NCBI RefSeq assembly: GCF_013155395.1
Contig: NZ_JABJWC010000009.1
Location: 1 to 64,000, forward strand
Source: Komagataeibacter melomenusus
Lineage (GTDB): Bacteria; Pseudomonadota; Alphaproteobacteria; Acetobacterales; Acetobacteraceae
DNA: 64,000 nucleotides
Reading direction: 5' to 3'
In this document: piece after piece, positions 597 to 61,783 of the stretch
Position numbering within the stretch: position 1 is the first letter of the stretch
Layout: each line of letters opens with the position of its first letter
Translations under genes and position numbers: made by a program
Notes under the pieces: model-generated
Seen by the model: only the letters and a program-made list of their open reading frames with translations
What the model was told of the DNA's origin: nothing
Database searches by the model: none

Positions 597-610
597 GATG
601 AAGCCTTTCG

Positions 611-1780
611 TTATTCCGGGTCGTGTGGCGTGCGGCGCAGCAGGAACTCGCGCCCCGCCTTGACCCGTGGCACGTCGTCATACGCCACGATATCCGCCGT
701 GGCATAGGTCTCGGACCAGCGATCAGGGATGAACGAGCCCGTGCCGATCACATCCACCGGGGCATGGGCATCGGCCATGCTCAGGCATTTCTCCACGCTG
801 AACCCCGATGAGGCGATGATGCGTACATGCGCGAAACCCGCCTCGTCCAGCACCTCGCGCATGCGCCAGATGGCGGCAGCCGAGACCCCGGTGCCCACAA
901 GGTGGCTGAGTTCCTTGTCCGAGCGGTAGCGCCGGATGGTGCCCGGCGTGTGGCGCTCGAGCACGTCATAGGAAGCCTGCGGGTCCAGCCCTTCAAGAAA
1001 GCGGCCGCCATGCGTGTCGAGCCGCACGGCCAGCCGCCCCTGTGCCGCAAGTTCGGGGAAGTGCCGGCATACCTCCAGCGCATCCGTCACCTCGCGGCCA
1101 AAATAGTCAACCAGCACCACCAGGTCCATGGCGGGATAGACCTCATGGAACATCTCGGCCGCCCGCAGGGTCGAGCCCGCATAGCCCACCAGCGCATGCG
1201 GCATGGTGCCCAGGCCGTGGGTGGTGCCAAAATAATGGGCCGTGGCGTCATTCGCGCCACCAATGAAGCCATGCGCCCCTTCCTTCTGGGCGGCATGGCT
1301 GCCAACGGAGGCGGCATAGGCCATCTGCTCCTGCATGCCAAAGCCCGCGCAATGGCGGGCCTCCATGGCCAGAAAGCGCACATGGGGCAGCGCCATGGCC
1401 ATCTGGTAGGCATTATGGGCCGCGACACAGGCCGGGCCGAGGCGCTGGAGCAGCAGTGTCTCGAGCGGGGCAAGGGCTGCAAACGAGCCGGTTACGTAGG
1501 CCAGCGGCTCACCCGCCCCCACCCATGTGCCCTCGGGGTAGAGAAGCGTGGTGTCAATGGTGATGCCGCGCGCACTACCAACTGCGCGCAGCCACTCGGT
1601 CATGAGCCGGGGGGCGGAAATGACCGGGCGGCGCAGGAAGACGGCATAGGTCACCTTCCTGTCGCCAAAATGCTCCACAATGGCGCGCGTGCGGTTGAAA
1701 TACGCATCCGTGCGGGCTGCGATCATGTCATCCGCAGCACTGGCAAGCCTGTCACGGCCTGCCGGTTCACCCTGGGTCAT
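611..1780 (-). CDS. pncB: Nicotinate phosphoribosyltransferase
   Basis: Predicted to join nicotinate to PRPP, giving nicotinate mononucleotide, in the Preiss-Handler salvage route to NAD. The 389-aa product has the family architecture: an N-terminal segment with DAYFNRTRAIVEHFGD, a central AHNAYQMAMA/EARHCAGFGMQ stretch containing the expected catalytic His region, and a C-terminal barrel with SSGFSVEKC and VDVIGTGSF phosphate-binding elements. The start is the ATG of MTQGEPAGRD, directly after a GGGAGGGG ribosome site. The upstream in-frame extension is not needed. It lies 32 bp downstream of the DAHP synthase gene on the same strand. NAPRTase and the related nicotinamide enzyme are hard to separate by eye, but the motif order favours PncB. 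Confidence 0.85.
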   Translation of the reverse strand: MTQGEPAGRDRLASAADDMIAARTDAYFNRTRAIVEHFGDRKVTYAVFLRRPVISAPRLMTEWLRAVGSARGITIDTTLLYPEGTWVGAGEPLAYVTGSFAALAPLETLLLQRLGPACVAAHNAYQMAMALPHVRFLAMEARHCAGFGMQEQMAYAASVGSHAAQKEGAHGFIGGANDATAHYFGTTHGLGTMPHALVGYAGSTLRAAEMFHEVYPAMDLVVLVDYFGREVTDALEVCRHFPELAAQGRLAVRLDTHGGRFLEGLDPQASYDVLERHTPGTIRRYRSDKELSHLVGTGVSAAAIWRMREVLDEAGFAHVRIIASSGFSVEKCLSMADAHAPVDVIGTGSFIPDRWSETYATADIVAYDDVPRVKAGREFLLRRTPHDPE

Positions 1781-1812
1781 GTCCCCTCCCTTCCCGCTCC
1801 GGGGCGGCGGGG

Positions 1813-3216
1813 TCAGCGTGCCCCGCCAGCCATCCGGTGCATCCGCGTTTTCAGTTCCTCGGCCAGACGGAATGCCATCTCCAGCGACTGTTCCGCATTC
1901 AGGCGCGGATCGCAAAAGGTTTCATACCGCTCGCCCAGATCATCTTCCGTCAGGCGGTGGGCGCCACCGATGCATTCGGTCACGTTCTGGCCCGTCATTT
2001 CAAAATGCACGCCGCCGGGGCTGGCGCCCGCGGCCTCGAACACATCAAAGAAGCCGTGGATCTCGGAGAGGATGGCATCGAACGAACGCGTCTTCACACC
2101 CGTCGAGGTCGAACTGGTATTGCCGTGCATGGGGTCGCACAGCCACGTGACCGTGCGGCCGGTGGCCATCACCTTGTCGAGCAGCGGCGGCAGGTGGTCG
2201 CGCACCTTGCCCGCCCCCATGCGCGAGATGAGCGAGATGCGCCCGGCTTCATCCCCGGGGTTGAGAATGTCGAGCAGCTGCTCGAGGTCCTCGATGGTGG
2301 TGGAGGGGCCGACCTTGATGCCGATGGGGTTGCGCACCCCGCGCAGGAACTCGACATGCGCGCCATCGGGCTGGCGGGTGCGATCACCGATCCACACGAA
2401 ATGGGCCGAGCAGTCATACCATTCGCCCGATGTCGAATCGATGCGGGTCAGCGCCTGCTCGTAAGGCAGCAGCAGGGCCTCGTGCGAGGTATAGAACTCG
2501 GTCTCGTCGATCTGGGGCGTGGTGGTGGCATTCAGGCCGCAGGCCGCCATGAAGTCCAGCGTCTCGCCGATGCGACCGGCGAGTTCGCCATAACGCTGGG
2601 CCAGCGGCGAGCGCTCGACGAAGCCGAGGTTCCAGCGATGCACCTCATGGAGGTTGGCATAGCCGCCGCTGGCGAAGGCGCGCAGCAGGTTCATGGTGCC
2701 GACCGACTGGAAGTAGCCGGTTTCCATGCGCCTGGGGTCGGGAATGCGCGCGGCCTCGGTGAAGTCGGAGCCGTTGATGATGTCACCGCGATAGGACGGC
2801 AGGGTCACGCCATCCTTGGTTTCGGTATCCGATGAGCGCGGCTTGGCGTACTGGCCTGCCATGCGCCCGATCTTGATCACCGGCACCTTGGCGCCAAAGG
2901 TCAGCACCACCGCCATCTGCAGCAGCACGCGAAAGGTGTCGCGCACGATATCGGCGGTGAATTCGCTGAAGCTCTCGGCACACGCGCCACCCTGCAGCAC
3001 GAAGGCCTGCCCCGTGGCGGCCTTGGCCAGGTGGGCGCGCAGGCGGCGGGCCTCGCCTGCGAAGACCAGCGGCGGGTAGCGGCGCAGGCGGGCCTCCACG
3101 TCGCCCAGGGCTGTCTCGTCGGGGTATCGCGGCATCTGCCGCGCGGGAAACGACCGCCAGCTCTCCGGCGTCCAGGCCTGCCGGGAAGAACTGTTGTGGC
3201 TGTGCGTCGCACTCAT
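1813..3216 (-). CDS. Class II 3-deoxy-7-phosphoheptulonate (DAHP) synthase
   Basis: Catalyses the first shikimate step, condensing phosphoenolpyruvate and erythrose-4-phosphate to DAHP for aromatic amino acid synthesis. The 467-aa protein is the usual length for the plant-like class II enzymes. It carries [12 protein letters not shown] near residue 75, [17 protein letters not shown] with the metal/PEP-binding region, a [13 protein letters not shown] loop, and [10 protein letters not shown] with the metal-binding His near residue 370. The start chosen is [10 protein letters not shown], with AGGA 12 nt upstream. The ORF could extend further but the extension has no resemblance to the family. 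First gene of an apparent operon with pncB and the 121-aa protein. Confidence 0.93.
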
Positions 3217-3524
3217 GGGTCGGATCCTAATTCCTCTTGATACAAGACACTCCTTTCCGCCCACGGGCGGAAGGGCCGCCTTTATGTCGAAAAAACCACC
3301 ATATGGCAAAGCCTGTTCGCGGCGCTTTGTGATAGCAGGGACGGGACAGGCGCCATAAATGTTGCATGGCGGCCACAACTCAGGTGGCGCGCGCCCTCGT
3401 GGGGTCGTATTGCGCGGCGGGGGCACCCATATGTAAAAGAGGTATGGTTGGCCTGCCACGTCACCGCTTCCCTTAGCAAAAAAGCCTTGGCATGCTGCCC
3501 TCTCAGGTAAAAGGATTACGGATC
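3217..3524. other. Divergent intergenic region, aroG-type gene / small secreted protein
   Basis: 308 bp without a credible gene. It must hold outward promoters for the minus-strand DAHP synthase operon and the plus-strand 3525 gene. A short perfect hairpin (TTCCGCCC-AC-GGGCGGAA, 3254-3271) lies in the DAHP synthase leader, about 40 nt from its start. It has no U-tract, so it is not an obvious terminator. No leader peptide rich in aromatic codons is evident. Confidence 0.5.
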
Positions 3525-3869
3525 ATGGCCACCTCACGTGGGAAACTCATAACCGCCCTCTCGGCCGGGCTGTGCCTGTTGAGCGTGACGGCCATGGCCG
3601 CCCCGGCCAGCCAGGACGACGCAAACAGCCAGGATGAAGACCGGATGACCGTTCACGGCCAGCGCGGCCACCTGCCGCCCGGCTATGAGGAAGCGCCGTC
3701 GATGGAACTCAACCACGGCCCCGACCCCGACCATCTGGAGCATGTGCATCGTGACTCGGTTACGGGCACGGACCTGTCGCGCTTCGGCACGGCCTACCAG
3801 AGCAGCGGCATCAATGGCGATGGCCAGCTTGGCGATTCCACCGGCAATGGCTGGGTGGCCCCGCGCTGA
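3525..3869 (+). CDS. Small secreted protein of unknown function (114 aa)
   Basis: Starts at MATSRGKL, preceded by AAAAGGAT 9-12 nt upstream. Residues 1 to about 26 are a clear Sec signal peptide ending in an AMAAPA cleavage motif. The mature part is about 88 residues, hydrophilic and rich in Asp, His, Gly and Pro (for example GHLPPGYEEAPS and NHGPDPDHLEHVHRD), with no cysteine. The His/Asp clusters could bind metal, but this is only inference. The gene stands alone, with a strong intrinsic terminator 20 bp after its stop. I do not recognise the family. Confidence 0.7.
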   Translation: MATSRGKLITALSAGLCLLSVTAMAAPASQDDANSQDEDRMTVHGQRGHLPPGYEEAPSMELNHGPDPDHLEHVHRDSVTGTDLSRFGTAYQSSGINGDGQLGDSTGNGWVAPR

Positions 3870-3890
3870 CACATTCAGCCGCCAGACATA

Positions 3891-3929
3891 AAAAAAACCG
3901 CTGCCGGGATGACCCGCAGCGGTTTTTTT
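3891..3929 (+). terminator. Rho-independent terminator
   Basis: The stem CCGCTGC...GCAGCGG with loop CGGGATGACCC is flanked by seven A on the left and seven T on the right, so it can work in both directions. It closes the secreted-protein gene (stop at 3869). Confidence 0.9.
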
Positions 3930-3953
3930 ATTGGGCAGAGCCTGTATTCAGAT

Positions 3954-4033
3954 AAAAGTTTCTGGGAGCCGCCTTTTTCAAAAAGGCGGCATTCCTCCGT
4001 AGCTTTTTGAAAAAAGCTTCACCAAAAACTTTT
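3954..4033. repeat. Dispersed intergenic repeat, full copy B
   Basis: The copy runs from AAAAGTTTCTGGGA to TCACCAAAAACTTTT as an outer imperfect inverted repeat enclosing two hairpin arms. One is GCCGCCTTTTTCAAAAAGGCGGC (3969-3991); the other is built on AGCTTTTTGAAAAAAGCT. It lies between convergent genes and ends 16 bp from the glutathione reductase stop codon. Confidence 0.85.
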
Positions 4034-4049
4034 ACTGTTTTTTAACTTT

Positions 4050-5451
4050 TTAACCTGCGCTGCGTGGTGTCACGCGCGTGCGGGTGCGCATGGTCACGAA
4101 TTCTTCCGCCGCCGTGGGGTGGATGCCGATCGTGCGGTCCCAGTCAGCTTTCTTCAGCCGTGCCGTCACGGCCACGGCCAGCCCCTGCATGATCTCGGGC
4201 GCGTCATCGCCCAGCATGTGGGCACCGACCACCACCTGGCTGGCCTGATCGACCACAAGCTTCATCAACGTGCGCTGCTCGCGCCCGCTCAGCGTGTTGC
4301 GCATGGGGCGGAAGCGGCTGACATACACATCCACATCCCCTTCCTTCGCGGCCTCCGCCTCGGTCAGGCCAACGCTGGACAGCGTGGGGGTGAAAAACAC
4401 CGCCTTGGGCGTGGTGGCGTAGCACCATTCGCGCGGCGGGGCCTTGCCAAACAGGCGGTCGGCCAGGTTATGGCCCTCGGCAATGGCGACCGGGGTCAGG
4501 TTGAGGCGGTTGGTCACGTCGCCTATGGCGTAGATGCCGGGCACCGTCGTCTCGCTCTTGTCATCAACGATGATGCGCCCGTTCTCCTCCATCGCCACGC
4601 CAAGCTGCGTAAGCCCCAGCCCGGTCACCTTGGGGTGGCGGCCGGTGGCGAAGAAGACGCAGTCGGTCTCGATGCGGGTGCCGTTATCAAGGCTGACAAC
4701 GAAACTGCCATCGGCCTGTTTTTCAATGGCGGTGGGTGAAGCCGCCACGTGCTGGCGGATGCCACGCAGGTCGATCGCATCATGCAGGGCGTGGCGCAGG
4801 TCGGCGTCAAAACCACGCAGCGGCAGGTTCTGGCGGTAAACCAGGTCCACCGTCGAGCCAAGCCCGCGGAAGATACCGGCAAACTCCACGCCGATATAGC
4901 CCCCCCCCCACCAGGCACACGCGGGCGGGACGCTCTTCAAGGTGGAACGCCTGGTCGGACGAGATGGCATATTCCACGCCCGGCAGTTTGGGCAGGGTGG
5001 GCGTGGAACCGACCGCAATGACGATGCGCGCGGCCGTGACACGGCGCGGGGCCTCATGCGGGGCGAGTGGCGAGGGGTCGATGCGCAGGGTGTGCGCGTC
5101 CTCGATGGTGGCATGGCCGGTAAACAGGGCCACGCCAGCCTTTTCCAGCATCGTGACATAGATGCCGTTGAGCCGGGCGATCTCGCGGTCCTTGGCAGCG
5201 ATGAGCGCGGCCCAGTCATTGTGGCCGCGCTGCGTGTTCCAGCCAAAGCCGTGGCTGTCATCCACCCAGTCGCCATAGTCGCTGGCCTGCACCATCAGCT
5301 TCTTGGGCACGCAACCCAGATTGACGCAGGTGCCGCCCCAGTGGCGGCTCTCGGCTACGGCAACCCGCGCCCCGTGGCTGGCGGCAATGCGCGCGCAGCG
5401 CACGCCGCCGGAGCCCGCGCCAATGACGAACAGATCAAAATCATAACTCAT
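4050..5451 (-). pseudogene. gor: Glutathione-disulfide reductase, interrupted by a +1 frameshift in a G10 tract
   Basis: Flavoprotein disulfide reductase that would use NADPH to regenerate glutathione. The N-terminal part (start MSYDFDLFVIGAGSGG) carries the FAD-binding GxGxxG and the redox-active disulfide motif GGTCVNLGCVPKKL. The C-terminal part, in another frame, carries the NADPH-binding GGGYIGVEFAGIF, FATGRHPKV, YAIGDV and the dimer-interface HPTAAEEFV. Both parts together are of normal length (about 465 aa). The reading frame changes at a run of ten C on the + strand (4900-4909), which is G10 in the coding strand. Nine G would restore VGGGYIG. It is either a true phase-variable or broken allele or a sequencing error. 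All catalytic motifs are otherwise intact. Confidence 0.9.
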
Positions 5452-6751: not shown

Positions 6752-9220
6752 ATGAGTTCAGAATTTTCCGATCGCGACGCGTCCACCGCAGCCCCTGCCG
6801 CGCTGGCGCTCGATGCCGCCATCGCCGCCACCGGCCTGCATGTTGAAACCCGCGAGCGCCCCAAGCTCGAGCGCGTGATCGCCCGCAAGCTGGCCCCCGG
6901 CACCGAGCGCGTGGATGACGCGACCTTCCGCGCCGCCCTGTGTACCGTGCGCCGCAAGCCGTGGGGCTCGCGCCTGATGGACCTCACCCGCCGGGCAGGG
7001 CAGGTGTGGGTTACCCGCGCGGATACCGAGGCTGCGGCAAAAACGGTCGATACCCCCGAGCCGGACGATGCCACCCTGCTCGCGGCGCTGACGCCCGTGC
7101 TGCATGAAAAACTGCGCACCCAGGGCGACACGCCACAGCAGGCGGTGGAGAACATCCGCTCCGACCTGTTCGATGGCACGGGGCGCATGCTCTCGCCCGG
7201 TGAACTGCGCACCCTGGCGCTGGCGGTGGCCGATGCCTTTGCCCTGGCCGACCCGGCCGCCTTTGCCGCCAGCCTCGATGCGGCGGAAAGCAGTCGCCGC
7301 GACCGCGATGCCCGCATAGAGGACACGGCGCGCACCCGCCGGCGCGAGGAAGTCCAGCGCCTGCGCGATTGGGAAAAGAGCCTCGTGCCCTTCAGCGACG
7401 TGCCGGGCCTGCTGCGCTGCTCGCAGCGCGAGGCCCTACGCTGGATTGCCGAGAACCGCCTGCCCGTCGCCCGCCGCGTGCCGCAGGCGGGTGGGCAGGA
7501 ACGCTGGGAGTTCGACCCCTCCGAACTCATGGCCCTGCGCCAGAACCTGCCCGCGTGGCGGCGCGAAGGACCGGAGGGCGACAAACGCGCACCACTGGCC
7601 CCCGACCTTGGCAACAAACGCGTGGGCAATGCCGTGATTGCGCAGGTGGCGGCGCTCGACCGCTACGCCGCCCACTTCCGCACCGCGCGCGCGCTCAACC
7701 GGCGCATCACGCTGGTTACGGGGCCGACCAACAGCGGCAAGTCGCACACCGCACTCGATGCACTGGCCCGCGCCGAAAGCGGGCTCGCACTCGCGCCGCT
7801 GCGGCTGCTGGCCCATGAGTTCCGCGAGTCGCTGACCGCGCGCGGCGTGCCGACCTCGCTCGCCACGGGCGAGGAACGCATCGACGTGCCCGGCAGCCGC
7901 CACCTTGCTGCAACAGTCGAGATGTGCCCGCTGAACAACCCGGTCGATGTCGCCATCATCGACGAGGCCCAGATGCTCACCGACCCCGACCGGGGCGCTG
8001 CGTGGACGGCGGCCATCATGGGCGCACCCGCGCGTCACCTGTTCATTCTCGGCGCGCCGGACTGCATCCCCATGGTCCGGCGCATTGCCGAACTGTGCGG
8101 CGACCCGGTGGATGAAATCCGCCTGGAGCGCAAAAGCCCGCTGGTCGCAGCCGAGCGCGCGGTCAGCCTGCCTGAGTTGCAGAAGCATGATGCGCTGATC
8201 GCCTTCTCACGCCGCGAGGTGCTCGACCTGCGCGCGCTGCTGCTGGCCCATGGCAAGCGGGTGGCGGTGGTGTATGGCGCGCTCAGCCCCGAGGTGCGCC
8301 GGGCGGAGGCGCAGCGCTTCAATAACGGCGATGCCGATATCCTGATCGCAACCGATGCCATCGGCATGGGGCTGAACCTGACCATCCGCCGCGTGGTGTT
8401 TGCGGCCCTGCGCAAATATGACGGCAACCAGACCCGCGACCTCAACCCGCAGGAGGTCAAGCAGATCGGTGGCCGCGCCGGGCGCTTTGGCAAGCATGAA
8501 CAGGGCGTGGTGGCCGTGCTGGAGGGCGTGGGCAGCCCGTCCTTCATCCGCGCCATGCTGGACGCGCCGCCGCAGCCGATCGAGGACATGCGCCCGCAGG
8601 TGCAGCCCGATGCCGACATCGTGCAGGCGGTTGCCGCCGAGATCGGCTCCGACAGCCTGTTCGGCGTGCTGGTGCGCATCCGCCGCGCGGTGCTGCGGCG
8701 TGATGACCCCAATTACCGCCTGGCCAATATGGAGCAGGCCTTCGCCATCGCCACCGCCCTTGAAGGTGTGCCGGACCTGACACTGGCCCAGCGCTGGGTC
8801 TATGCCATGTGCCCGGTGGATGACCGTGACAACGGCATCCAGCGCCTCGTGCACTGGGCTGCGGACCACGCGGCGGGCAACAGCGTGCCGCCACCGGGCA
8901 CGGGCCGCCTGCCGCCCGCCGAACGCGCCGAGCGCACGGAGCTTGAACGCGCCGAAAAGCGCCACAAGCGGCTGGTGGCGTGGCGGTGGCTGGCACTCCG
9001 CTTCCCCGAAGCCTACGTCAACCGCGAGGATGCGGAGGAAACCACGGCAAGGCTGAATGACTGGATCGAGGACGTGCTGCGCCAGCAGAGCGTGCGCGCG
9101 CGGGCCACATCCGCCTCCCCCTTCCGCCCCGACAGCCGCGCCAACCCGCCGGGGCGCAGGAGCGGCAACCGCGATGGCGCTCCCCCCAAAGGCAAGCGCC
9201 CCCACCGCAAAAGGCGCTGA
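6752..9220 (+). CDS. Suv3-like DExH RNA helicase
   Basis: An ATP-dependent RNA helicase of the SUV3 type found in alphaproteobacteria and mitochondria, where it works in RNA turnover. The 822-aa product has a poorly conserved N-terminal third. The helicase core follows: Walker A TGPTNSGKS (residue about 330), Walker B variant DEAQM (instead of DEAD/DExH), VVYGALSPEVRR, then ATDAIGMGLNL and QIGGRAGRFG (motif VI). The C-terminal tail is very basic (RRSGNRDGAPPKGKRPHRKRR region) and probably binds RNA. The start MSSEFSDRD is preferred to the ATG 18 nt upstream because AGGAAAC sits immediately before it. Transcribed divergently from fpr and convergent with serS. Confidence 0.88.
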   Translation: MSSEFSDRDASTAAPAALALDAAIAATGLHVETRERPKLERVIARKLAPGTERVDDATFRAALCTVRRKPWGSRLMDLTRRAGQVWVTRADTEAAAKTVDTPEPDDATLLAALTPVLHEKLRTQGDTPQQAVENIRSDLFDGTGRMLSPGELRTLALAVADAFALADPAAFAASLDAAESSRRDRDARIEDTARTRRREEVQRLRDWEKSLVPFSDVPGLLRCSQREALRWIAENRLPVARRVPQAGGQERWEFDPSELMALRQNLPAWRREGPEGDKRAPLAPDLGNKRVGNAVIAQVAALDRYAAHFRTARALNRRITLVTGPTNSGKSHTALDALARAESGLALAPLRLLAHEFRESLTARGVPTSLATGEERIDVPGSRHLAATVEMCPLNNPVDVAIIDEAQMLTDPDRGAAWTAAIMGAPARHLFILGAPDCIPMVRRIAELCGDPVDEIRLERKSPLVAAERAVSLPELQKHDALIAFSRREVLDLRALLLAHGKRVAVVYGALSPEVRRAEAQRFNNGDADILIATDAIGMGLNLTIRRVVFAALRKYDGNQTRDLNPQEVKQIGGRAGRFGKHEQGVVAVLEGVGSPSFIRAMLDAPPQPIEDMRPQVQPDADIVQAVAAEIGSDSLFGVLVRIRRAVLRRDDPNYRLANMEQAFAIATALEGVPDLTLAQRWVYAMCPVDDRDNGIQRLVHWAADHAAGNSVPPPGTGRLPPAERAERTELERAEKRHKRLVAWRWLALRFPEAYVNREDAEETTARLNDWIEDVLRQQSVRARATSASPFRPDSRANPPGRRSGNRDGAPPKGKRPHRKRR

Positions 9221-9231
9221 ACAGAACAGAC

Positions 9232-9306
9232 GTTTTTGGTGAAGCTTTTTTCAAAAAGCTTCGAAAAGAAGCCGCTTTTTTGAAAAAAGGCGGCACCCAA
9301 AAACTT
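9232..9306. repeat. Dispersed intergenic repeat, full copy C
   Basis: GTTTTTGGTGAAGC...GGCGGCACCCAAAAACT with both arms: GAAGCTTTTTTCAAAAAGCTTC (9241-9262) and GCCGCTTTTTTGAAAAAAGGCGGC (9271-9294). It fills most of the gap between convergent helicase and serS genes, 11 bp and 10 bp from their stop codons. Confidence 0.88.
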
Positions 9307-9316
9307 CTGATTTTCT

Positions 9317-10582
9317 TCAGCGGATGATGTCGATCCCGCCCATGTAAGGCCGCAGCACCTCCGGCACGGTGATGGTGCCATCCTCGTTCTGGTAGTTTTC
9401 CATCACCGCGATCAGCGTGCGGCCCACGGCAAGGCCGGAACCATTGAGCGTGTGCACGAAGGCGGGCTTGCCATCGGCCGCGCGGTAGCGGGCATTCATG
9501 CGCCGGGCCTGGAAGTCGCGCGTGGTGGAGCACGACGAGATCTCGCGCCACGCCTTCTGGCCGGGCAGCCAGGCCTCGAGGTCGAAGGTCTTGGCCGCGC
9601 CAAAGCCGGTATCCCCCGCGCACAGCAGCAGGCGGCGATAGGGGATGCCCAGCTTCTCCAGCACCATCTCGGCACAGCGGGTCATGCGCTCGTGCTCGGC
9701 ATCACTTTCCTCCGGCGTGGTGATGCTGACCATCTCCACCTTCTGGAACTGGTGCTGGCGCAGCATGCCGCGCGTATCCCGCCCTGCCGCCCCCGCCTCG
9801 CTGCGAAAGCATGAGGAAAGCGCCACCAGCCTGCGCGGCAGCACGGAGCTGGGCAGGATCTGGCCCGAAACACTGGCCGTGAGCGGTACCTCGGCGGTGG
9901 GGATGAGCCAGCGGCCATCTTCGGTGCGGAAGGACTGGTCGGCAAATTTGGGCAGCTTGTCGGTGCCGTACATGGCCTCGTTATTGACCAGCACCGGCAC
10001 GGCTGTTTCCTCATAGCCGTTATCGGTGGTGTGCAGGTCGAGCATGAACTGGCCCAGGGCGCGCTCCATGCGGGCCAGTGCGCCGCGCAGCACCACGAAG
10101 CGCGCCCCCGACAGGCGCGATGCGGTCTCGAAATCCATCAGGCCCAGCGCCTCGCCCAGCTCGAAATGTTCGCGCGGGGTGAAGCTGAATTCGCGCACCA
10201 CGCCATTGCGGTGCACTTCCACGTTGGCGCTTTCATCCGCCCCATCGGGCACCGACGGATCAAGCTGGTTGGGCAGGCGCTCGAGCGTGCCGCGAATCTG
10301 GCCATCGAGTTCGGCAACCCGGGTCTGGAGTGCTTCCATCCGCGCCTTGCCATGGGCCACGCGCTCTTCAAGTGCTGCGGTATCCGCGCCGGATTTGCGC
10401 AAGGCCCCGATCTCTTTGGAGATCTTCTTGCGGCTGGCCTGAAGCTCCTGCAATTCGGTCTCGGCGGCGCGGCGCTCGGTGTCCAGCAGCAGCACGCCAT
10501 CGGCCACGGCGGGCGCCCCGCGCCGTTTCAGGGCAGCATCAAAGCCTGCGGGGTCGGCGCGTAGGGCACGCAGGTCGTGCAT
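9317..10582 (-). CDS. serS: Seryl-tRNA synthetase
   Basis: Charges tRNA-Ser with serine. The 421-aa product has the family layout: N-terminal antiparallel coiled-coil arm (about residues 30-105, rich in Lys, Glu and Leu) that grips the long variable arm of tRNA-Ser, then the class II core. Motif 2 appears around [21 protein letters not shown] and motif 3 around [17 protein letters not shown]. The start ATG overlaps the tatC stop (ATGA), so it is the last gene of a scpA-scpB-tatB-tatC-serS string. The downstream border is a dispersed repeat. Confidence 0.97.
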
Positions 10583-11391
10583 CAGGGGGTCTCCTCGGTT
10601 TCTTCAGGCGGTCTGCGCGGCTCGACAAGGCGGGCGCAGAGAATGGAAATTTCGTACAGCCCGATCAGCGGCACGGCCAGGCCGGTCTGGGTAATGACAT
10701 CGGGCGGGGTGAGAATGGCAGCCGCCACGAACGCGCCCACATAGGCGTAGCGCCGCACCTTCGCCAGCCCCCTTGACGTGACCAGCCCCACGCGGGCCAT
10801 CAGCGTGAGCACCACCGGCAGCTCGAACGCCATGCCGAACGCCAGGATCAGCTTCATCACCAGCGAGAGGTATTCCGACACCTTGGCCTGAAGCTCGATC
10901 TGCAACCCGTCCTGCCCGTCCGCCGTCTGGAACGACAGGAAGAACTTCCACGCGGCGGGGAAGATGAAGTAGTAGGCCAGCGCGGCACCGATGGCGAACA
11001 TGATGGGGGTGGCCACGAGGAAGGGCGCGAAAGCCCGCTTTTCGCTCTTGTACAGACCGGGTGCGATGAAGATCCATGCCTGCACCGCCACCATGGGGAA
11101 TGACAGGCAGGCCGCGCCGAAGAAGGCGACCTTCATGTAGGTGAAGAAGGCTTCGTACAGCGCGGTATAGATCAGGTGCGGCTGCTCGCCCTTCTGGCGC
11201 ATGATGTCGCCCAGCGGCTTGGCGAGGAAGAAGTAGATCTGCTCGGAATAGTAGTAGCAGACCGCAAAGCACGCCACGAACGACACCATCGACCACAGCA
11301 GCCTGCGCCGCAGTTCGACAAGGTGCTCGAGCAGCGGCATGGGCTGGTCATCAATGGCGTCCGGGTTGGGGCTTTCGTCTTGGGCGTCCAT
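10582..11391 (-). CDS. tatC: Sec-independent protein translocase subunit TatC
   Basis: Core receptor of the twin-arginine translocase, which exports folded proteins across the inner membrane. The 269-aa protein has the six hydrophobic segments of the family and the conserved N-terminal [18 protein letters not shown] region that binds the RR signal peptide, with the key HLxELRRR motif. FGxAFELP is present as [11 protein letters not shown]. It sits 7 bp downstream of tatB and overlaps serS by 1 bp. A candidate Tat substrate in this window is the endoglucanase CMCax (39980 region). Confidence 0.95.
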
Positions 11392-11398
11392 CGTGTTC

Positions 11399-11959
11399 CT
11401 ATTCCTGCCCTGCGGGGTTCACGCCAACGCGCTGGCCACGGTGAATGACCCGGACTGGCGGCAGGAAGGCAGGGGGGGTAAGGCGCGGCAGTTCGGCGGC
11501 GATGCGCCGGGCGGCGCGGGGTGGCAGGAAATCGGGCGCATCGGGTGCGTCCACCTCCGCAGGGTCTGCATCGACAAGGGGCGGGATGTAGTGGCGTGAG
11601 GGAATGGCCTGCTCGGGCAGGGATGATGCAGGCGTTGTAACGGGTGCGGACATGGCGGACTGCGCCGCCTCATGCGTATCATCAAGCGAGCGGCGCAGGG
11701 CGCCATCGCCGTCAATGGCGCTCATGATCTTGTCGCGCACGTTCATGCGCTTGAGCTGGCCAAGCTGGTCGCGCGCCTCGGTCAGGTCGGCCTCGCGCAC
11801 CATCTCATCCACATGCGACTGGAACTCGGTGGCAAGGCCGCGGGCCTTCTTGATCAGCCCGGTGACGGTGCGGATGGCGACAGGCATGTCCTTCGGCCCG
11901 ATCAGCAGCAGGCCCACCACCCCGATCAGGGCAAATTCAGACCATGCGAAATCGAACAT
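11399..11959 (-). CDS. tatB: Twin-arginine translocase subunit TatB
   Basis: Single-span membrane protein that forms the Tat receptor with TatC. The N-terminus MFDFAWSEFALIGVVGLLLIGP has the transmembrane segment with the conserved Glu near position 8, ending at the Gly-Pro hinge, followed by an amphipathic helix. The C-terminal half (about 110-186) is a long Pro/Ala-rich tail typical of TatB rather than TatA. No separate tatA lies between scpB and tatB: only 78 bp separate them. Confidence 0.92.
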   Translation of the reverse strand: MFDFAWSEFALIGVVGLLLIGPKDMPVAIRTVTGLIKKARGLATEFQSHVDEMVREADLTEARDQLGQLKRMNVRDKIMSAIDGDGALRRSLDDTHEAAQSAMSAPVTTPASSLPEQAIPSRHYIPPLVDADPAEVDAPDAPDFLPPRAARRIAAELPRLTPPAFLPPVRVIHRGQRVGVNPAGQE

Positions 11960-12037
11960 CAGCCGTTCCTTCCCTACCGCGCCCGCCCCTTGCGGCCCGC
12001 GCAGAACCGTACATCATCATCCTGCTCCGCACACCTA

Positions 12038-12733
12038 TCACGCCACGGGCGCGTCAGGAACCTCATCCGGCGCATCATCGCCTCCGTCCGCCGCCTGCAT
12101 GCCACCGGGCGGTTCGGATGCCGCATCGGGCACATCCACCAGCAGTTCCTCGCGCCGGGGCAGGTCGCCCAGGTCCTTGAGGCCAAAATGGCGCAGGAAG
12201 CCGCTTGACGTGCCCCACAGGATCGGCCGCCCCGGCACTTCCTTGCGGCCCAGCGGCATGATGAGTTCGGCCTCGAGCAGCGTGTCGAGCACCTGCTGGC
12301 TCAGGCTCACACCGCGAATTTCCTCGATCTCGGCGCGCGTGCAGGGCTGGTGGTAGGCGATGATGGCCAGCGTCTCCATGGTCGAGCGCGCCAGCCTGCG
12401 CGGGCGCGGCATCACGCGGGTCAGGCGCGGAGCAAGGTCAGGGGCTGTGCGGAACTGCCAGCCCCCCGCCACCTCGACCAGTTCCACCCCGCGCCCGGCA
12501 TACTGCGCGCCAAGGGCGGCCAGCGTGGCTGCCACATAGGCATCGCGGTCGGCGGTATCATGCGGGATGCCGCCCTGCGCGCCGAGCACCTCGGCAATGG
12601 CGCGGGTGCTGAGCGGGTCGGCACGGGCGAAGATCAGGGCCTCGACAAGGCGCAGCGAAAAATCACGCACCGTGATGTCTTCCGCCCCGTCCTGCACGGG
12701 CGCGATGAGATCAGGCTGCTCGGGGTCGTTCAT
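12038..12733 (-). CDS. scpB: Segregation and condensation protein ScpB
   Basis: Winged-helix partner of the SMC-ScpA condensin that compacts and segregates the chromosome. The 231-aa product shows the family core: VEALIFARADPLS, a VEVAGGWQFRT strand pair, and the ETLAIIAYHQPCTRAEIEEIRGV second winged helix. A low-complexity acidic tail follows (from about residue 200). The start codon overlaps the scpA stop. Confidence 0.94.
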   Translation of the reverse strand: MNDPEQPDLIAPVQDGAEDITVRDFSLRLVEALIFARADPLSTRAIAEVLGAQGGIPHDTADRDAYVAATLAALGAQYAGRGVELVEVAGGWQFRTAPDLAPRLTRVMPRPRRLARSTMETLAIIAYHQPCTRAEIEEIRGVSLSQQVLDTLLEAELIMPLGRKEVPGRPILWGTSSGFLRHFGLKDLGDLPRREELLVDVPDAASEPPGGMQAADGGDDAPDEVPDAPVA

Positions 12734-24208: not shown

Positions 24209-24248
24209 CGCCGCCTTTTTGAAAAAAGGCGGCACCCAAAAACTTTTA
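24209..24248. repeat. Dispersed intergenic repeat, half copy D
   Basis: GCCGCCTTTTTGAAAAAAGGCGGCACCCAAAAACTTTT: one arm plus one side of the outer stem. It ends 31 bp from the Nudix gene stop codon. Confidence 0.8.
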
Positions 24249-24279: not shown

Positions 24280-24909
24280 TCAGTCAAAATCCGTGGGCAG
24301 GTCGGGGTTGGCGGCGTGTTCGAACATGCGGGCCAACTGGCCGGGCAGCACGCGGCCAAGCGAGAGGTCGGTGGGCAGGTGGTCTGCAGCAAACCAGCCG
24401 ATCTCCGATGTCTCGATACTGGTCTTGGCACTGCCGCCGGTCAGTTCGCAGATGAAATAGAGCGTGCAGCATGAAAACGGTCCCGGCGGGTGGCCCTGCC
24501 GGTCGCGGTCCCACACGGCGGCGAGCTTGGTCACGCGCACGCTAAAGCCGCTTTCCTCGCGCACTTCCTTTACCGTGTTTTCCACCGGGGTCAGGTTCAC
24601 ATCCGCCCAGCCGCCAGGCAGGGTCCAGCGGTCATGGTCCAGCACCTCGCGCACCAGCAGTATCCGGCCCTGCGCATCGAACACGGCGGCGCGCACCACC
24701 AGCTTTGGCGTGGCATAGCCGTCCTGATCGCTGAACAGGTCGAGCACGCGCGCCATGTCGGCATGGCTGCCCGCGGCCATCATGTCGGCTGCGATCTGCC
24801 TTATGCTTTCATAGCGTTCCCGGTCGAACGGGCTTTCGGCATAGGTCAGGCCACTCTGGGCCAGTGCCTGCAGGTCGCGCGCCCAGATGAGCCATTGCGG
24901 GGGTGTCAT
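24280..24909 (-). CDS. Nudix hydrolase with N-terminal extension
   Basis: Mg-dependent hydrolase of a nucleoside diphosphate linked to another moiety; the substrate is not predictable. The 209-aa product has an N-terminal helical domain (about 1-65, of the hydrolase N-terminal type often found with ADP-ribose or NADH-like substrates). The Nudix fold follows: VRAAVFDAQGRILLVRE, DRWTLPGGWAD and the Nudix box GWADVNLTPVENTVKEVREE with SGF, all catalytic Glu present. The start overlaps the stop of the cupin gene upstream by 4 bp. Confidence 0.88.
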   Translation of the reverse strand: MTPPQWLIWARDLQALAQSGLTYAESPFDRERYESIRQIAADMMAAGSHADMARVLDLFSDQDGYATPKLVVRAAVFDAQGRILLVREVLDHDRWTLPGGWADVNLTPVENTVKEVREESGFSVRVTKLAAVWDRDRQGHPPGPFSCCTLYFICELTGGSAKTSIETSEIGWFAADHLPTDLSLGRVLPGQLARMFEHAANPDLPTDFD

Positions 24910-25447: not shown

Positions 25448-25527
25448 AAAGTCTTCGGGTGCCGCCCTTTTTCAAAAAGGCTGATTTCTTCGAAGCTTTT
25501 AAAAAAAAGCTTCGCCAGAAACCTCTT
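25448..25527. repeat. Dispersed intergenic repeat, degenerate full copy E
   Basis: AAAGTCTTCGGGTGCCGCC...AAAGCTTCGCCAGAAACCTCTTC, with both arms recognisable but diverged: CCTTTTTCAAAAAGG (25467-25481) and GAAGCTTTTAAAAAAAAGCTTC. It abuts the stop of the chorismate-lyase-like gene. Confidence 0.7.
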
Positions 25528-26204
25528 CAGGGATCGGGGCTTCCCTGATCCCGAGACGGAAAGGCGAGGGTCTGGTCGGTATAGGTTTCCACCACCTCAC
25601 TAAAGGCATGCCCCTGCCCGTCGCGCAGCACCGCGCGCTGGCGCACGATTTCAGCCGGGGCCACGATCATCGCCATGGCCTGCCCCGCAGCCGGTCCCGG
25701 CCAGGGGGACCACAGCCGCGTAAATTCCAGCCGCTCGCGGGTAAAATCCAGCGGCGCCACCACATGGCCGAAGGAGGTATCCGTCCCCTCCAGCGTGGCG
25801 TTCATCTGCGGCGTCAGCAGACCGGGCACATACCAGTTATCCGCGACCGAAAGCACATACGGGCCACAGGCCAGCCTGACCTGCCGGTGCCGCACGGGCT
25901 GCGTGGCACTCACGCCCAGATCGGCCCGCACCCGCGCGGGCACGGGGTCGGGCTGCGGCAGGTCTGCCTTCTGTGCCACCACCACGGGGTGTTCGGCCAT
26001 ATGGTGGACTGCGCACCAGTCCTCGAGCGCCAACGTTGCGCTGGGGTGGGTGAGCAGGGTGATTTCCAGCTCCTGCACGCTCATCATCAGGCGCGCGCGG
26101 TTAGCAGGCGTATCGGGCCATGCGGGGCTGGCCGCCTGCACGGGGCAGGCAGGCAACAGGCCAGCCACCATGATCGCTGCCCCAAGCGGCGCCCTTCTCC
26201 TCAT
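25527..26204 (-). CDS. Exported chorismate-lyase-like (UbiC/UTRA-fold) protein
   Basis: A 225-aa protein with a cleavable signal (MRRRAPLGAAIMVAGLLPAC...QAASP). The segment LPAC could also serve as a lipobox. The mature part begins with a helix (LMMSVQELEITLLTHPSATLALEDWC). It then contains VRHRQVRLACGPYVLSVADNWYVP, TDTSFGHVV and VLRDGQGHAFSEVVETYT. That order (an R-x-V-x-L strand, an A-x-N-W-Y/P-x-L segment and a final SE-V-E-x-Y) recalls chorismate pyruvate-lyase and its relatives. An exported version would not meet cytoplasmic chorismate, so the activity is unknown. It lies 8 bp after bglAx on the same strand and is likely co-transcribed with it. Confidence 0.65.
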   Translation of the reverse strand: MRRRAPLGAAIMVAGLLPACPVQAASPAWPDTPANRARLMMSVQELEITLLTHPSATLALEDWCAVHHMAEHPVVVAQKADLPQPDPVPARVRADLGVSATQPVRHRQVRLACGPYVLSVADNWYVPGLLTPQMNATLEGTDTSFGHVVAPLDFTRERLEFTRLWSPWPGPAAGQAMAMIVAPAEIVRQRAVLRDGQGHAFSEVVETYTDQTLAFPSRDQGSPDP

Positions 26205-43285: not shown

Positions 43286-43313
43286 AGGCGGCGTTCTTTA
43301 AAGCTTTTAAAAT
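43286..43313. repeat. Dispersed intergenic repeat, decayed half copy J
   Basis: AAAGGCGGCGTTCTTTAAAGCTTTTAA resembles the junction between the two arms of the full repeat read in reverse (GCGGCGTTCTTTTGAAGCTTTTT). It lies 5 bp after the rpoH stop, next to the terminator. Confidence 0.5.
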
Positions 43314-43314
43314 T

Positions 43315-43350
43315 AAAGCCCCGCATGCCAATGGCCTGCGGGGCTTTTTC
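43315..43350 (+). terminator. Rho-independent terminator of rpoH
   Basis: AAAGCCCCGCA-N11-TGCGGGGCTTTTTC with a run of T on the + strand, 34 bp after the rpoH stop codon. Confidence 0.92.
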
Positions 43351-43363
43351 TTTGAAAATAATA

Positions 43364-43442
43364 AGAAGTTTTTGGTGAAGCTTTTTTCAAAAAGCTTCAA
43401 AAAATGCCGCCCTCCAGTATGAAGGGCGGCACCCAAGAACAT
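43364..43442. repeat. Dispersed intergenic repeat, full copy F with variant arm
   Basis: AGAAGTTTTTGGTGAAGC...GGGCGGCACCCAAGAACAT. The first arm is standard (GAAGCTTTTTTCAAAAAGCTTC, 43377-43398). The second is GCCGCCCT-CCAGTATGA-AGGGCGGC: the stem is kept but the AT-rich loop is replaced. It ends 14 bp from the purA stop codon. Confidence 0.85.
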
Positions 43443-48405: not shown

Positions 48406-48500
48406 GTGCCGTGTATCCTGATAAGAACTTCCCGCTGCGGGGTGTGCGATCTATACAAAACCTGCGCCCGACCGCAACACAAACAGGCAGGAACCACCCC

Positions 48501-49295
48501 ATGCAAGACGCTGCCCTTCCCCTCCAACGCCTGCTGGACATCATGGCCCGCCTGCGCGACCCCGAGACCGGCTGCCCGTGGGACAAGGTGCAGGATTTCG
48601 CCTCCATCGCACCCTACAGCATTGAAGAAGCCTATGAAGTAGCCGACACCATCGCCCGCGAGGACTGGAACGGCCTGCCCGATGAGTTGGGCGACCTGCT
48701 GCTCCAGGTCGTCTATCACGCGCAGATGGCCGATGAGAAAGGCCTGTTCGACTTTGCCACCGTGGCCACCCTGATTGGCGACAAGATGGTCCGCCGCCAC
48801 CCCCATGTGTTTGGCGAGGCCGAAGCCGCACCCGGCCAGTGGGAAAGCGGCAAGGCGCTCGAACGCCTTGCCCGCAACCGGCGCGGCACGCTGGACGACG
48901 TGCCCGTGGGCCTGCCTGCGCTGCTGCGCGCGCGCAAGCTCTCGGCGCGCGCAGCCCGCGTGGGGTTTGACTGGGATACGGTGGGCGAAGTCGCCGCCAA
49001 GGTGGATGAGGAACTCGATGAACTGAAGGTGGAGCTTGAAAGCGGCGACCGCGAAAAGATATTCGATGAACTCGGCGACGTGCTGTTCACGCTGGCCACA
49101 CTGGCCCGCAAGCTCGACATGGACCCCGAGGCCTGCCTGCGCCAAGCCAATGCCAAGTTTACCCGCCGCTTTACCGCCGTCGAGCACGACCTGGCCGACC
49201 GGGGGCTGGCGCTGGCCGATGTGGACGTGAAAACCATGGAAGAGGGCTGGCAGGCGGTAAAACGCCGCGAGCGTGCAGCAATAAAAAAGACTTAA
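48501..49295 (+). CDS. mazG: Nucleoside triphosphate pyrophosphohydrolase MazG
   Basis: House-cleaning all-alpha NTP pyrophosphatase. The 264-aa product has the two tandem MazG domains of the full-length enzyme: the first with DPETGCPWDKVQDFASIAPYSIEEAYEVAD, then ELGDLLLQVVYHAQMA. The second has VDEELDELKVELE and DELGDVLFTLATLARKL (the ExxE-x(12-28)-ExxD metal motifs). The start MQDAALPLQR has AGGA 10 nt upstream. Directly followed by a dispersed repeat. Confidence 0.94.
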   Translation: MQDAALPLQRLLDIMARLRDPETGCPWDKVQDFASIAPYSIEEAYEVADTIAREDWNGLPDELGDLLLQVVYHAQMADEKGLFDFATVATLIGDKMVRRHPHVFGEAEAAPGQWESGKALERLARNRRGTLDDVPVGLPALLRARKLSARAARVGFDWDTVGEVAAKVDEELDELKVELESGDREKIFDELGDVLFTLATLARKLDMDPEACLRQANAKFTRRFTAVEHDLADRGLALADVDVKTMEEGWQAVKRRERAAIKKT

Positions 49296-49300
49296 AAATC

Positions 49301-49380
49301 AAAAGTTTTTGGTGAAGCTTTTTTCAAAAAGCTTCAAAAGAACGCCGCTTTTTTGAAAAAAGGCGGCACCCAAAAACTTT
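49301..49380. repeat. Dispersed intergenic repeat, best-preserved full copy G
   Basis: 80 bp from AAAAGTTTTTGGTG to CACCCAAAAACTTTC, an outer 14-bp inverted repeat. Inside are arm 1 GAAGCTTTTTTCAAAAAGCTTC (49314-49335) and arm 2 GCCGCTTTTTTGAAAAAAGGCGGC (49344-49367). It fills the gap between convergent mazG and the phosphatase gene: 5 bp and 6 bp from the two stop codons. Confidence 0.92.
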
Positions 49381-49386
49381 CATCTT

Positions 49387-50223
49387 TCAGGGAGCCGTCA
49401 GCAGCAGGTCGTGCAGCGCCTGCCAGCTTGCCCGGTCCGGCGCATAAAGCAGCCCACCGCTGCGGTCACTCACGCGATAGGGCGCGCCATCAAAATGCGC
49501 GCTGTAGCCGCCTGCTTCCTGATGGATCAGCCAGCCTGCCAGATGGTCCCATGGCAGGGTGCGGTTGAACAGCAGGAAATGGCAGCGCCCATCGACCAGC
49601 ATCAGGTATTCATGCGCCGCACAGCGGAAATCCCATGATCCTGCCACCTTGGGCAGGTTATGGGTCACCACATCACGCACGGGGGCGGGCAGGTAGCGCC
49701 ATGAGGCATTGCCCGCCATCTCATGCGCGGGCACGGCGGGGGCGACCTGCAGGCGGCGCTCGCCTCCCTGGCCATCATTGAGCCACGCACCCTGGCCGCG
49801 CGCGGCCAGGGCTGCGATATTGCAGATGGGGTCCACAATCGCCCCACCCACCACTTCGCCGCCCGATACGGCGGACACCATCACGCCAAACAGCGGCACG
49901 CCCGCCGCGTAATTGGCGGTGCCATCAATCGGGTCGATCACGAAGGCCAGGTCTGCCGTGGCCAGGCCATCAAGCAGGTCGGGGCGTGCGGCCACCGCCT
50001 CCTCCCCCACCACGAGAGCCTGCGGCCAGACGGCCTGCAGGGCAGCGGTCAGGTCGCGCTCGGTCGCTTCATCCGCCACGGTCACGATGTCCATCGGCCC
50101 GGTCTTGCTGCGGATATCGGTACGGTCAAGGCAACGGAAGGAGGGCATGACATGGCGCCGTGCGGCTTCACGCATCATCGCCACCACCTTGTGCATATCC
50201 GCCAGTGTGATCCGTTGCGTCAT
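49387..50223 (-). CDS. Inositol monophosphatase-family phosphatase
   Basis: Mg-dependent phosphatase of the IMPase/CysQ superfamily. The 278-aa product has the metal site VVGEEA (Glu), FVIDPIDGTANYAAGVPLFGV (the DPIDGTxN motif) and SWDFRCAAHEYLMLVDGR with PWDHLAGWLIHQEAGG near the C-terminus. All metal ligands are present. Whether the substrate is inositol phosphate, histidinol phosphate or PAP cannot be read from sequence. HisN activity is a fair alternative given acetic-acid-bacterial metabolism. Start at 50223 follows GGAGG. Confidence 0.85.
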   Translation of the reverse strand: MTQRITLADMHKVVAMMREAARRHVMPSFRCLDRTDIRSKTGPMDIVTVADEATERDLTAALQAVWPQALVVGEEAVAARPDLLDGLATADLAFVIDPIDGTANYAAGVPLFGVMVSAVSGGEVVGGAIVDPICNIAALAARGQGAWLNDGQGGERRLQVAPAVPAHEMAGNASWRYLPAPVRDVVTHNLPKVAGSWDFRCAAHEYLMLVDGRCHFLLFNRTLPWDHLAGWLIHQEAGGYSAHFDGAPYRVSDRSGGLLYAPDRASWQALHDLLLTAP

Positions 50224-50364
50224 TGCCGCCTCCACCCCTGTCCGTTGTTCAGCCCGTCATTCCTGCGCTGCCGGGCGCTGTTTTTCCACCCCATGCGCCC
50301 GCATGGCCGGAGCATCCGGCACGCCTGCATGCAAGGCCGGTATCAAAAGACTCCTGCAACCGTA

Positions 50365-50442
50365 AGGAGGTTTGCGGTGAAGCCTTGCGAGAAAAGCTTC
50401 GGCAAATGCCGCCTTTTTGAAAAAAGGCGGCACGCAAAAACA
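50365..50442. repeat. Dispersed intergenic repeat, diverged full copy H
   Basis: AGGAGGTTTGCGGTGAAGCC...GGCGGCACGCAAAAACACCT. Arm 2 is perfect (GCCGCCTTTTTGAAAAAAGGCGGC, about 50408-50431). Arm 1 is diverged (GAAGCCTTGCGAGAAAAGCTTC). In the outer stem GGTTTGCGGTG faces CACGCAAAAACACC, where the changed C-G pair is kept. It ends 19 bp from the hflX stop. Confidence 0.75.
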
Positions 50443-60970: not shown

Positions 60971-61020
60971 AAAAGTTCAGGCGCTGCCTTTATTCAGGAA
61001 GGCAGCGCCCAAAAACTTTT
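60971..61020. repeat. Dispersed intergenic repeat, half copy I with variant arm
   Basis: AAAAGTTCAGGCGCTGCCTT-TATTCAGG-AAGGCAGCGCCCAAAAACTTTT: outer stem and one arm whose sequence (GGCGCTGCCTT/AAGGCAGCGCC) differs from other copies but still pairs. It ends 1 bp from the ATP12-like gene stop. Confidence 0.75.
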
Positions 61021-61021
61021 A

Positions 61022-61783
61022 TCACTCAGCCCGGCACAACTGAAGGAAGCGGGCTGCATCTTCCACTTCCGCCGCCTGCGCGCACAGGGCTTCGAGCAGT
61101 TTCGCGTCCTTGCCCCAGAGGTCCATCTGGCTGCGCTCGTCCACGCTGGCAATCTCGGCAGCCTTTGCCGCAGGCAACGCGCCGGTTACCACCATAAGCC
61201 CCAGCACGATGCTTTTCATCGCAGGCACCATCACGCCAAGCGCCGCCAGGGCCGCGTTATCCATTGGCATGAGCAGTGCCCGCCATGCGTCATGCACGGC
61301 AGGCGACTGCACGAGCGGCATGATGCCCGTTGTCACCGCCATGTCGATGCCGTGGCGCGCGCGCAGCCACGCAAGCTGCGGGTCCCATTCCGCCTGCTGC
61401 TGCCTGCACAGGGGGGCCGGATAATCCGCGCGGTAGCACAGCAGTTCCCCATCCACGTAATGCAGCAGGGCCGCGACCTGGGCTTGCGGGTCAGGGGCCA
61501 CGCGCTCGATCATGGTGCCCGCGATGCGCGTCATGGGCAGGTCATCGGGCGTGAAATGACCGCCCTTTTCCCCGCCTGCCTGCGCCCATTCATCGGCAAT
61601 GGCCTGTGCCAGCGCACGCGAGGGCACGCATAGCGGCGTGCCGCCGGGCAGGCGGATGCCCCGCCCGTCGAGTTCCACGCCAAAGCCGCCACCGGCAACC
61701 GCGCTGATCGCGCTCGCGGCCCAGAACCGCCGGCGCTGGCCTGCGGTCTGGGGCGTGGGGGGGCGTACGCCGTCCTTCATCAT
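61022..61783 (-). CDS. ATP12-family F1-ATPase assembly chaperone
   Basis: Bacterial relative of the mitochondrial chaperone that protects the F1 alpha subunit during ATP synthase assembly. The 253-aa product shows the domain opening RRFWAASAISAVAGGGFGVELDGRGIRLPGG, then CVPSRALAQAIADEWAQAGGE, MTRIAGTMIERV, and ELLCYRADYPAPLCRQQQAEWDP. SVDERSQMDLWGKD follows near the end. All follow the ATP12 order. The ATGATG start overlaps the AsmA stop, so the two are probably co-transcribed. Confidence 0.88.
   Translation of the reverse strand: MMKDGVRPPTPQTAGQRRRFWAASAISAVAGGGFGVELDGRGIRLPGGTPLCVPSRALAQAIADEWAQAGGEKGGHFTPDDLPMTRIAGTMIERVAPDPQAQVAALLHYVDGELLCYRADYPAPLCRQQQAEWDPQLAWLRARHGIDMAVTTGIMPLVQSPAVHDAWRALLMPMDNAALAALGVMVPAMKSIVLGLMVVTGALPAAKAAEIASVDERSQMDLWGKDAKLLEALCAQAAEVEDAARFLQLCRAE

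Follow-up and report, generated by a model that had tools for sequence, protein, structure and literature searches.

The Correia/NEMIS, ERIC and RUP sequences are short mobile intergenic repeats that fold as RNA stem-loops, and some are proposed, in the accessible text of the source, to affect neighbouring mRNA through RNase III processing or stability (PMC2229807). Small bacterial MITEs, as the same accessible text describes them, mostly have TA ends and form a single stem-loop from both ends (PMC2229807). The CIR repeats of Caulobacter and Brucella are there given as intergenic units of ∼110 bp, in which two RNA arms are joined by a linker and GANTC sites are present (PMC2229807). REP, BIME and REPIN sequences form another class, and the available portion of one source states that CGTC repeats are missing from the Acetobacteraceae (PMC3733652). 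For one member of this family, Lichenicola cladoniae, RepRanger gives REP counts of 1,369 in the text and 6,569 in the table, and in the available sections these REPs are known by counts alone, without motif, fold or gene-end analysis (PMC12306157).

Here we describe a two-hairpin repeat family found in 64,000 nucleotides of DNA from Komagataeibacter melomenusus (contig NZ_JABJWC010000009.1; this whole stretch is called the window) and across the rest of the genome. Parts of the element resemble known kinds, namely MITEs, REPINs, CIR repeats and two-way terminators. Set against the partly available descriptions cited above, it differs from the Correia/NEMIS, ERIC and RUP repeats in carrying two arms within an outer stem, in lying at gene 3′ ends and in its mostly TNA target sites. 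Like CIR, which was compared by description only, it is an alphaproteobacterial intergenic two-arm repeat, but its consensus contains no GANTC by eye. Within a literature search made mostly without subscription papers, we recognised no description of the two-hairpin family. Rfam returned two tRNA matches only for the window, and in seven element-bearing loci the matches over elements fell below the curated scores of their families.

Copies of the core and their predicted fold

The sequence-only reading had listed ten copies, all of which were located in the window sequence, six as full two-arm elements and four as partial ones:

49301-49380, + strand: full two-arm core in a convergent spacer, between genes 48411-49295 (+) and 49387-50235 (-), with stops 5 and 6 bp away
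43364-43442, + strand: full core in a convergent spacer, adjoining a canonical bidirectional terminator (∼43314-43353)
43286-43313, - strand: remnant of a second element on the opposite flank of the canonical terminator (profile E 0.0014)
9232-9306, + strand: full core in a convergent spacer, with stops 7 and 10 bp away
3954-4033, - strand: full core in a convergent spacer, with stops 85 and 16 bp away (minus-strand reading)
25448-25527, - strand: full, diverged core immediately 3′ of the stop of gene 25527-26204 (-)
50365-50442, + strand: full, diverged core 20 bp past the stop of the right-hand gene (tandem minus)
24209-24248, + strand: half copy made of arm B and the right outer strand, ∼33 bp past the stop of gene 24280-24909 (-)
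60971-61020, + strand: short copy made of the outer stem and a single arm, with the stop of gene 61022-61783 (-) 2 bp away
187-212, - strand: remnant made of half of arm A and its outer strand (profile E 0.0018)

Half copies had been described as keeping one arm and the outer stem, which is true of 60971-61020, while 24209-24248 has one arm with a single outer strand and 187-212 and 43286-43313 are remnants. The flank to the left of the 187-212 remnant (∼148-187) recurs beside another copy on a separate contig (L185; G000:C70, ∼43.7 kb), perhaps as a small duplication.

At the 49301 site, an element match is present in 13 of 16 loci of the Komagataeibacter/Novacetimonas group; the loci of K. 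melaceti and K. saccharivorans (2 of the 16) have no match, the N. hansenii locus stops at a contig edge, and the element is absent from all nine Gluconacetobacter loci of this site. The product of the adjacent gene 49387-50235 shares 96% protein identity with its K. xylinus NBRC 15237 counterpart. One record among the mostly alphaproteobacterial relatives of the query gene (L139, JAHREI010000002.1) is titled Bacillus subtilis. At the 43364 site, the element is at least partly present in all 14 aligned sequences (L112 holds part only; L105, L106 and L114 were left out of the alignment), and at the position of the 43286 remnant a longer copy is present in L102. The canonical bidirectional terminator at ∼43314-43353, flanked by the two element copies, is itself kept across the aligned Komagataeibacter loci.

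The genome measures 3,636,471 bp, and a search with the left half of the core (31 bases, at most 3 mismatches) found 140 near-copies genome-wide (69 and 71 on the two strands), with none for the reversed control. A profile search of 822,708 bp, comprising the window and further stretches, returned 94 non-overlapping elements (E ≤ 1e-3), 67 of which cover at least 65 of 79 positions. The repeat family proposed from the window is therefore real, and it extends through the genome with its two-arm order, neither confined to the window nor reduced to simple hairpins.

For 49293-49388 (+), RNAfold predicts an outer stem with two arms at -34.3 kcal/mol (z -5.47, 200 shuffles). The outer ends are complementary, as had been claimed, and the three-way junction is predicted on this strand; it is not the sole predicted fold on other strands, where the T/A runs of the two arms pair mutually in the minimum-energy fold (9220-9315 minus and 3947-4041 minus). 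With the sequence-derived structure as the template for counting, 90.3% of the cells are paired in 61 copies from the genome, and double-sided changes occur in 19 of 34 pairs, against 8.8 in shuffles. This covariation is modest because the sequence of arm A is nearly invariant. RNAalifold, applied to alignment A1, returned a weak and different structure (-2.8 kcal/mol) in place of the stem with two arms.

Position at gene ends

Gene contexts, in the genome itself and in distant genera, were called with a simple purpose-made gene caller. None of the 94 elements in the 822,708-bp sample lies inside a called gene. By spacer type, 57 are convergent, 33 tandem and 4 divergent, while the 427 background spacers of at least 60 bp comprise 78 convergent, 235 tandem and 114 divergent ones. 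Convergent spacers are thus in excess (57/94 against 78/427; binomial P ∼1e-19), and elements are rarer in divergent spacers than the background (4/94 against 114/427). All 33 tandem copies are closer to the upstream stop (median 19 bp) than to the downstream start (median 158 bp). Counted from the genes, an element is present in 55 of the 90 convergent spacers with a length of 40 bp or more, and lies -15 to 60 bp behind the stop in 114 of 697 genes and at most 60 bp before the start in 4.

Like bidirectional intrinsic terminators, the element sits between convergent genes as a hairpin structure that is A-rich before and T-rich behind. Over the 12 bases on each exit side of the 67 full elements, the T fraction is 0.47 and 0.37, compared to 0.225 in spacers. 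Unlike these terminators, the element is multi-branch with an A-U rich base, and a simple terminator scan called 26 of the 94 elements, which leans towards protection after Rho, or towards an unusual terminator. Elements in tandem spacers have no preferred orientation (13 of 33 co-oriented, counted by hand). A canonical terminator is also present at at least two element sites, and the presence of an element does not clearly go with fewer such terminators, which occur in 10 of 54 convergent spacers with an element and 10 of 34 without. The idea that elements replace canonical terminators is accordingly unsupported by these counts.

The 162-bp MITE and its candidate mover

A longer insert around an extra copy at the 50365 site of K. 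xylinus NBRC 15237, where a whole 162-bp MITE is inserted as a second copy beside the core, revealed a larger unit. The MITE consensus of 162 bp has inverted ends (GAGACTGTTTGAAAAG...) and contains the 80-bp unit as its core; its termini read GAGACTGTTTGAAAAGTYAG ... CAAACAGTCTC, with a 3-bp, mostly TNA target duplication. The unit size of ∼80 bp given by the sequence-only reading is therefore that of the core and not of the whole unit, recent copies being 162 bp. A search of the genome with the long K. xylinus copy, in which the best 40 of 284 candidates were scored, found several copies of 145-164 bp, and the same search matched 19 of 19 genus genomes, our own included (∼40 best candidates scored per genome). 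Copies were also present on seven plasmid records, six from Komagataeibacter and one from Novacetimonas.

Twenty-one copies were chosen from the full-length matches, 20 of which measure 160-165 bp and one 153 bp. Identical 3-bp flanks were found in 10 of these 21 copies, a set chosen for length, and in 16 of 24 copies in a set with longer flanks, the two sets having about five copies in common. The 16 identical triplets comprise nine TTA, four TAA, two TCA and one TTG, so that 15 of the 16 are TNA; the remaining copies have unequal flanks, as would be expected where a copy is old. For 7 of the 16, the triplet that is duplicated serves as stop codon to an adjoining ORF of 80 aa or longer. These represent about four independent sites (L198, L235 and L382, and likewise L233 and L234, look like the same gene), one of which is an annotated aldo/keto reductase gene on a K. 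nataicola plasmid.

Orthologous regions of two 20-kb blocks were taken from 18 other genus genomes (19 with our own; some table cells were unplaced). Several spacers exist in occupied and empty versions, which measure, for example, ∼394 and 202 bp, 217 and 59 bp, and 120 and 30-66 bp, and show insertion. Both the target duplications and the empty sites between relatives, to which the sequence-only reading had pointed as a check, are thus found, in 10 of 21 and 16 of 24 copies and among the 19 genomes, respectively. Copies are also lost at some orthologous sites. At spacer 44707/47385, old copies without MITE ends keep a near-consensus core; at 122967/124052, core and MITE ends are both kept; and at 118157/118963, the core is lost from our own genome. 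At the last of these, the copies of two groups point in opposite directions and differ in position, which suggests two separate insertions. Genome-wide, 14 MITE ends (16 bases, at most 2 mismatches), some of them from other elements, compare to 140 core halves.

Related sequences were seen in passing. A 117-bp stretch bearing MITE-type ends lies at 434-550 of L302 (G151:C281), and at ∼1501 of L186 (G000:C22) a MITE end stands before a different hairpin (GCCAGCCGCCGCC...) and may belong to a sister MITE. In N. hansenii plasmid p1 (L381), which is typed as conjugative, three cobalamin riboswitch matches (302-536, 1947-2192 and 2320-2560) fall within 2.3 kb near a full MITE copy.

Two larger units carry comparable ends. 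In L380 (G162:C62), positions 8862-12199 hold a transposon of 3,338 bp, the candidate mover, with ∼26-bp ends (GAGACTGTTTCAGAAGTTAGTATAAA and its near-inverse), a TTA/TTA duplication, a DUF4096 transposase and passengers; over the first 20 bases, it departs from the MITE consensus at 2-3 positions. In our own genome, L225 (G000:C33:43700-49300) holds at 223-5279 a transposon-like unit of ∼5 kb with ends GAGACTGTTTCAAAAG, TAA/TAA, a central DUF4096 transposase and passenger genes, one of which matches HEPN pEK499_p136. Among 19 loci with DUF4096 genes, MITE-type ends were found nearby only in L275, L288 and L290, which are parts of L225 and L226, and the candidate mover came instead from a related genome. 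We take the DUF4096 transposase and the MITE to be of the IS5/IS1031 type, with its TNA target rule. Because the ends are nearly shared and the duplication is of 3 bp, a DUF4096 (IS5-type) transposase probably mobilises the MITE in trans. Like IS5-type MITEs, the element is under 200 bp, non-coding and intergenic, with a 3-bp duplication and ends resembling those of a DUF4096 transposon. Unlike them, it has a two-arm core that often persists after the ends are gone and that other genera possess without such ends, and its duplication is sometimes a stop codon. The earlier proposal of a non-autonomous element mobilised in trans is supported at the sequence level by the inverted ends, the 3-bp duplications, the empty sites and a transposase-bearing transposon with near-identical ends.

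The sequence-only reading also called the repeat REP-like, which fits its look but not its mobilisation. Like REP, BIME and REPIN sequences, as the partly available sources describe them (PMC2817692; PMC3733652), it is an extragenic, high-copy inverted hairpin doublet with compensatory changes, but the genus genomes searched contain no RAYT. A REP/REPIN system moved by RAYT, the Y1 tyrosine transposase, would account for the intergenic, high-copy pair of inverted hairpin-plus-tail half-units as a REP doublet. We regard it as very improbable, since Y1_Tnp is absent from all 11 Komagataeibacter genomes searched (our own and 10 others), is present at all in 4 of 26 genomes that have the element or belong to the genus, and no GTAG- or CGTC-type tag was seen by eye beside the hairpin in the alignment A1 consensus. 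Inverted ends with a 3-bp duplication, moreover, fit a DDE transposase. For Komagataeibacter, a REP/RAYT origin was rejected on the absence of Y1_Tnp in 11 of 11 genomes. A separate strong Y1_Tnp match (145.7 bits) lies in a genus g73 genome (L368; G142:C11:52773-53135).

The architecture in other genera and its reading

A model search of the genome and of other Acetobacteraceae, suggested from the window, recovered the 94 elements of the sample and 12 further genera. Model R1 matched 22 of 150 family genomes, namely three Komagataeibacter, two of genus g73 and 17 others. By eye, the architecture is present in 16 of these 17, spanning 12 genera, with a contig from a bog Acetobacteraceae MAG (L126) as a named carrier; the match in G029 (L092), which on inspection is an ordinary hairpin, was not counted. 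Model R2, with strict filters and the best ten candidates scored per genome, matched at least one of 385 alphaproteobacterial genomes, our own. The architecture is absent from nine Gluconacetobacter loci and 10 other loci. Arm sequences vary by genus (GAAGC, GGTTC, GCTTC, GGGGGC, GGCCCC, GGGAG and others) yet remain complementary. In 56 aligned rows from distant genera, which were fitted to the model and include both strands of most elements, 94.7% of cells pair, 32 of 34 pairs show double changes, and there are 309 double-change cells against 84 in shuffles. All 21 loci tested (19 from these genera, one from g73 and one Komagataeibacter) are intergenic, 6 of them convergent, 15 tandem and none divergent.

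One genome of genus g68 has eight copies that carry 7 different arm-1 stems, all of which pair. This small set, in which two rows are shifted by the alignment, contains 10 double-change cells compared to 3.8 in shuffles (reached in 1 of 500), while its 4 double-change pairs do not exceed the 2.6 of shuffles (89 of 500). By eye, the eight copies share no common flank beyond the core, which limits the demonstrated carriage by a MITE to Komagataeibacter and one Novacetimonas plasmid.

Divergence between orthologous copies was compared at 12 sites in 24 site-groups, using non-inverted rows whose core scored 15 or more. Pooled pairwise divergence is 0.102 for the left outer strand, 0.103 for arm A, 0.212 for the internal spacer, 0.140 for arm B and 0.185 for the right outer strand. 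The MITE ends diverge by 0.173 (left) and 0.209 (right), or 0.187 for both, these columns being neighbouring DNA where the ends are gone. Both arms together (0.122) are slower than the internal spacer (0.212; ratio 0.44-0.78, bootstrap over 12 sites) and than the MITE ends (ratio 0.49-0.87, likewise), and diverge less than the spacer in 17 of 23 site-groups and less than the ends in 15 of 23. As a control, the internal spacer serves best, because gene conversion of the core would have homogenised the spacer too. Compared to the spacer DNA that lies beyond the element, the arms are not slower (pooled values 0.122 and 0.105; arms lower in 4 of 11 site-groups only), although this control is small, uneven and partly strongly conserved.

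These comparisons bear on a purely selfish MITE, whose gene-end bias would reflect its TNA targets, which a GC-rich genome offers at stop codons, and the purging of harmful insertions from genes and promoters, with no host function. The MITE features and stop-codon duplications, the canonical terminators that elements adjoin, the losses at orthologous sites and the outside-DNA rate all agree with it. We nevertheless consider it rather unlikely, given that, in orthologous copies, both the internal spacer and the MITE ends diverge faster than the arms, that 140 core halves face 14 MITE ends, and that the gene-end cores of other genera differ in their arms and lack common flanks.

The strand test for selection at the RNA level was negative, with 34 G-U and 44 A-C cells in the arms; in the outer stem, the 95 G-U and 38 A-C cells show no dependence on the direction of transcription. 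The missing strand-specific G-U signal would suit a DNA-level palindrome, cruciform or replication-linked, that is kept by template-switch repair of imperfect palindromes and to which transcription is irrelevant. The core is also inverted in place, with the same flanks, between close relatives (G165 and G163, G160 and G157), and between L101 and L102 at the 49301 site. A palindrome alone, however, leaves unexplained why 33 of 33 tandem copies lie near the upstream stop and why elements are rare in divergent spacers, and we hold this account to be improbable.

We think it somewhat probable that the repeat is a gene-end element, serving termination or 3′-end protection in both directions, and that it was multiplied in Komagataeibacter by the MITE. 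The MITE inserts in intergenic DNA; several insertions have hit a stop codon, which became the duplicated target triplet, so that the gene retains its stop. Insertion of the MITE explains the spread of the copies and the stop-codon neighbourhood of fresh ones. Transcripts arriving from either side may then form the outer stem with its two enclosed hairpins and a U-rich stretch behind it, and the folded core may end transcription, or block 3′-exonucleases after Rho-dependent termination. Between convergent genes, it would curb read-through into the facing gene. Inserted copies often lose their MITE ends to decay or deletion and often keep the hairpins; in other Acetobacteraceae genera the architecture is preserved and the arm sequences differ. 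Since the arms are slower and the same fold occurs at gene ends without MITE ends, the MITE alone seems insufficient, and we infer, as the simplest account, that the host uses the element where transcripts of either strand end.

The sequence-only reading had offered a mobile element and a bidirectional terminator or mRNA-stability module as alternatives, yet the two are not exclusive. The second is favoured by the location, the arms that are slower than the internal spacer and the cross-genus covariation; the outside-DNA rate, the strand test and the terminator-scarcity test are neutral towards it or count against it. More tentatively, and as a possibility that we hold with limited confidence, the repeats may form an Acetobacteraceae-wide gene-end class, in which arms turn over while the fold and the place behind stop codons are kept, with use possible on both strands. 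In Komagataeibacter, a MITE that can land in stop codons would have made this class mobile and self-spreading, so as to supply the 3′ ends of a large share of the convergent pairs.

If this is true, a jumping element would have given many genes their 3′ ends in a genus of vinegar and kombucha bacteria that is exploited for cellulose and vinegar, and the genome-wide rewiring of transcript ends by mobile DNA would become directly testable. The occupied, empty, shortened and inverted versions of orthologous sites in 19 genomes would offer a natural experiment on termination and mRNA decay, and the elements may provide ready two-way gene-end parts for the engineering of acetic acid bacteria.
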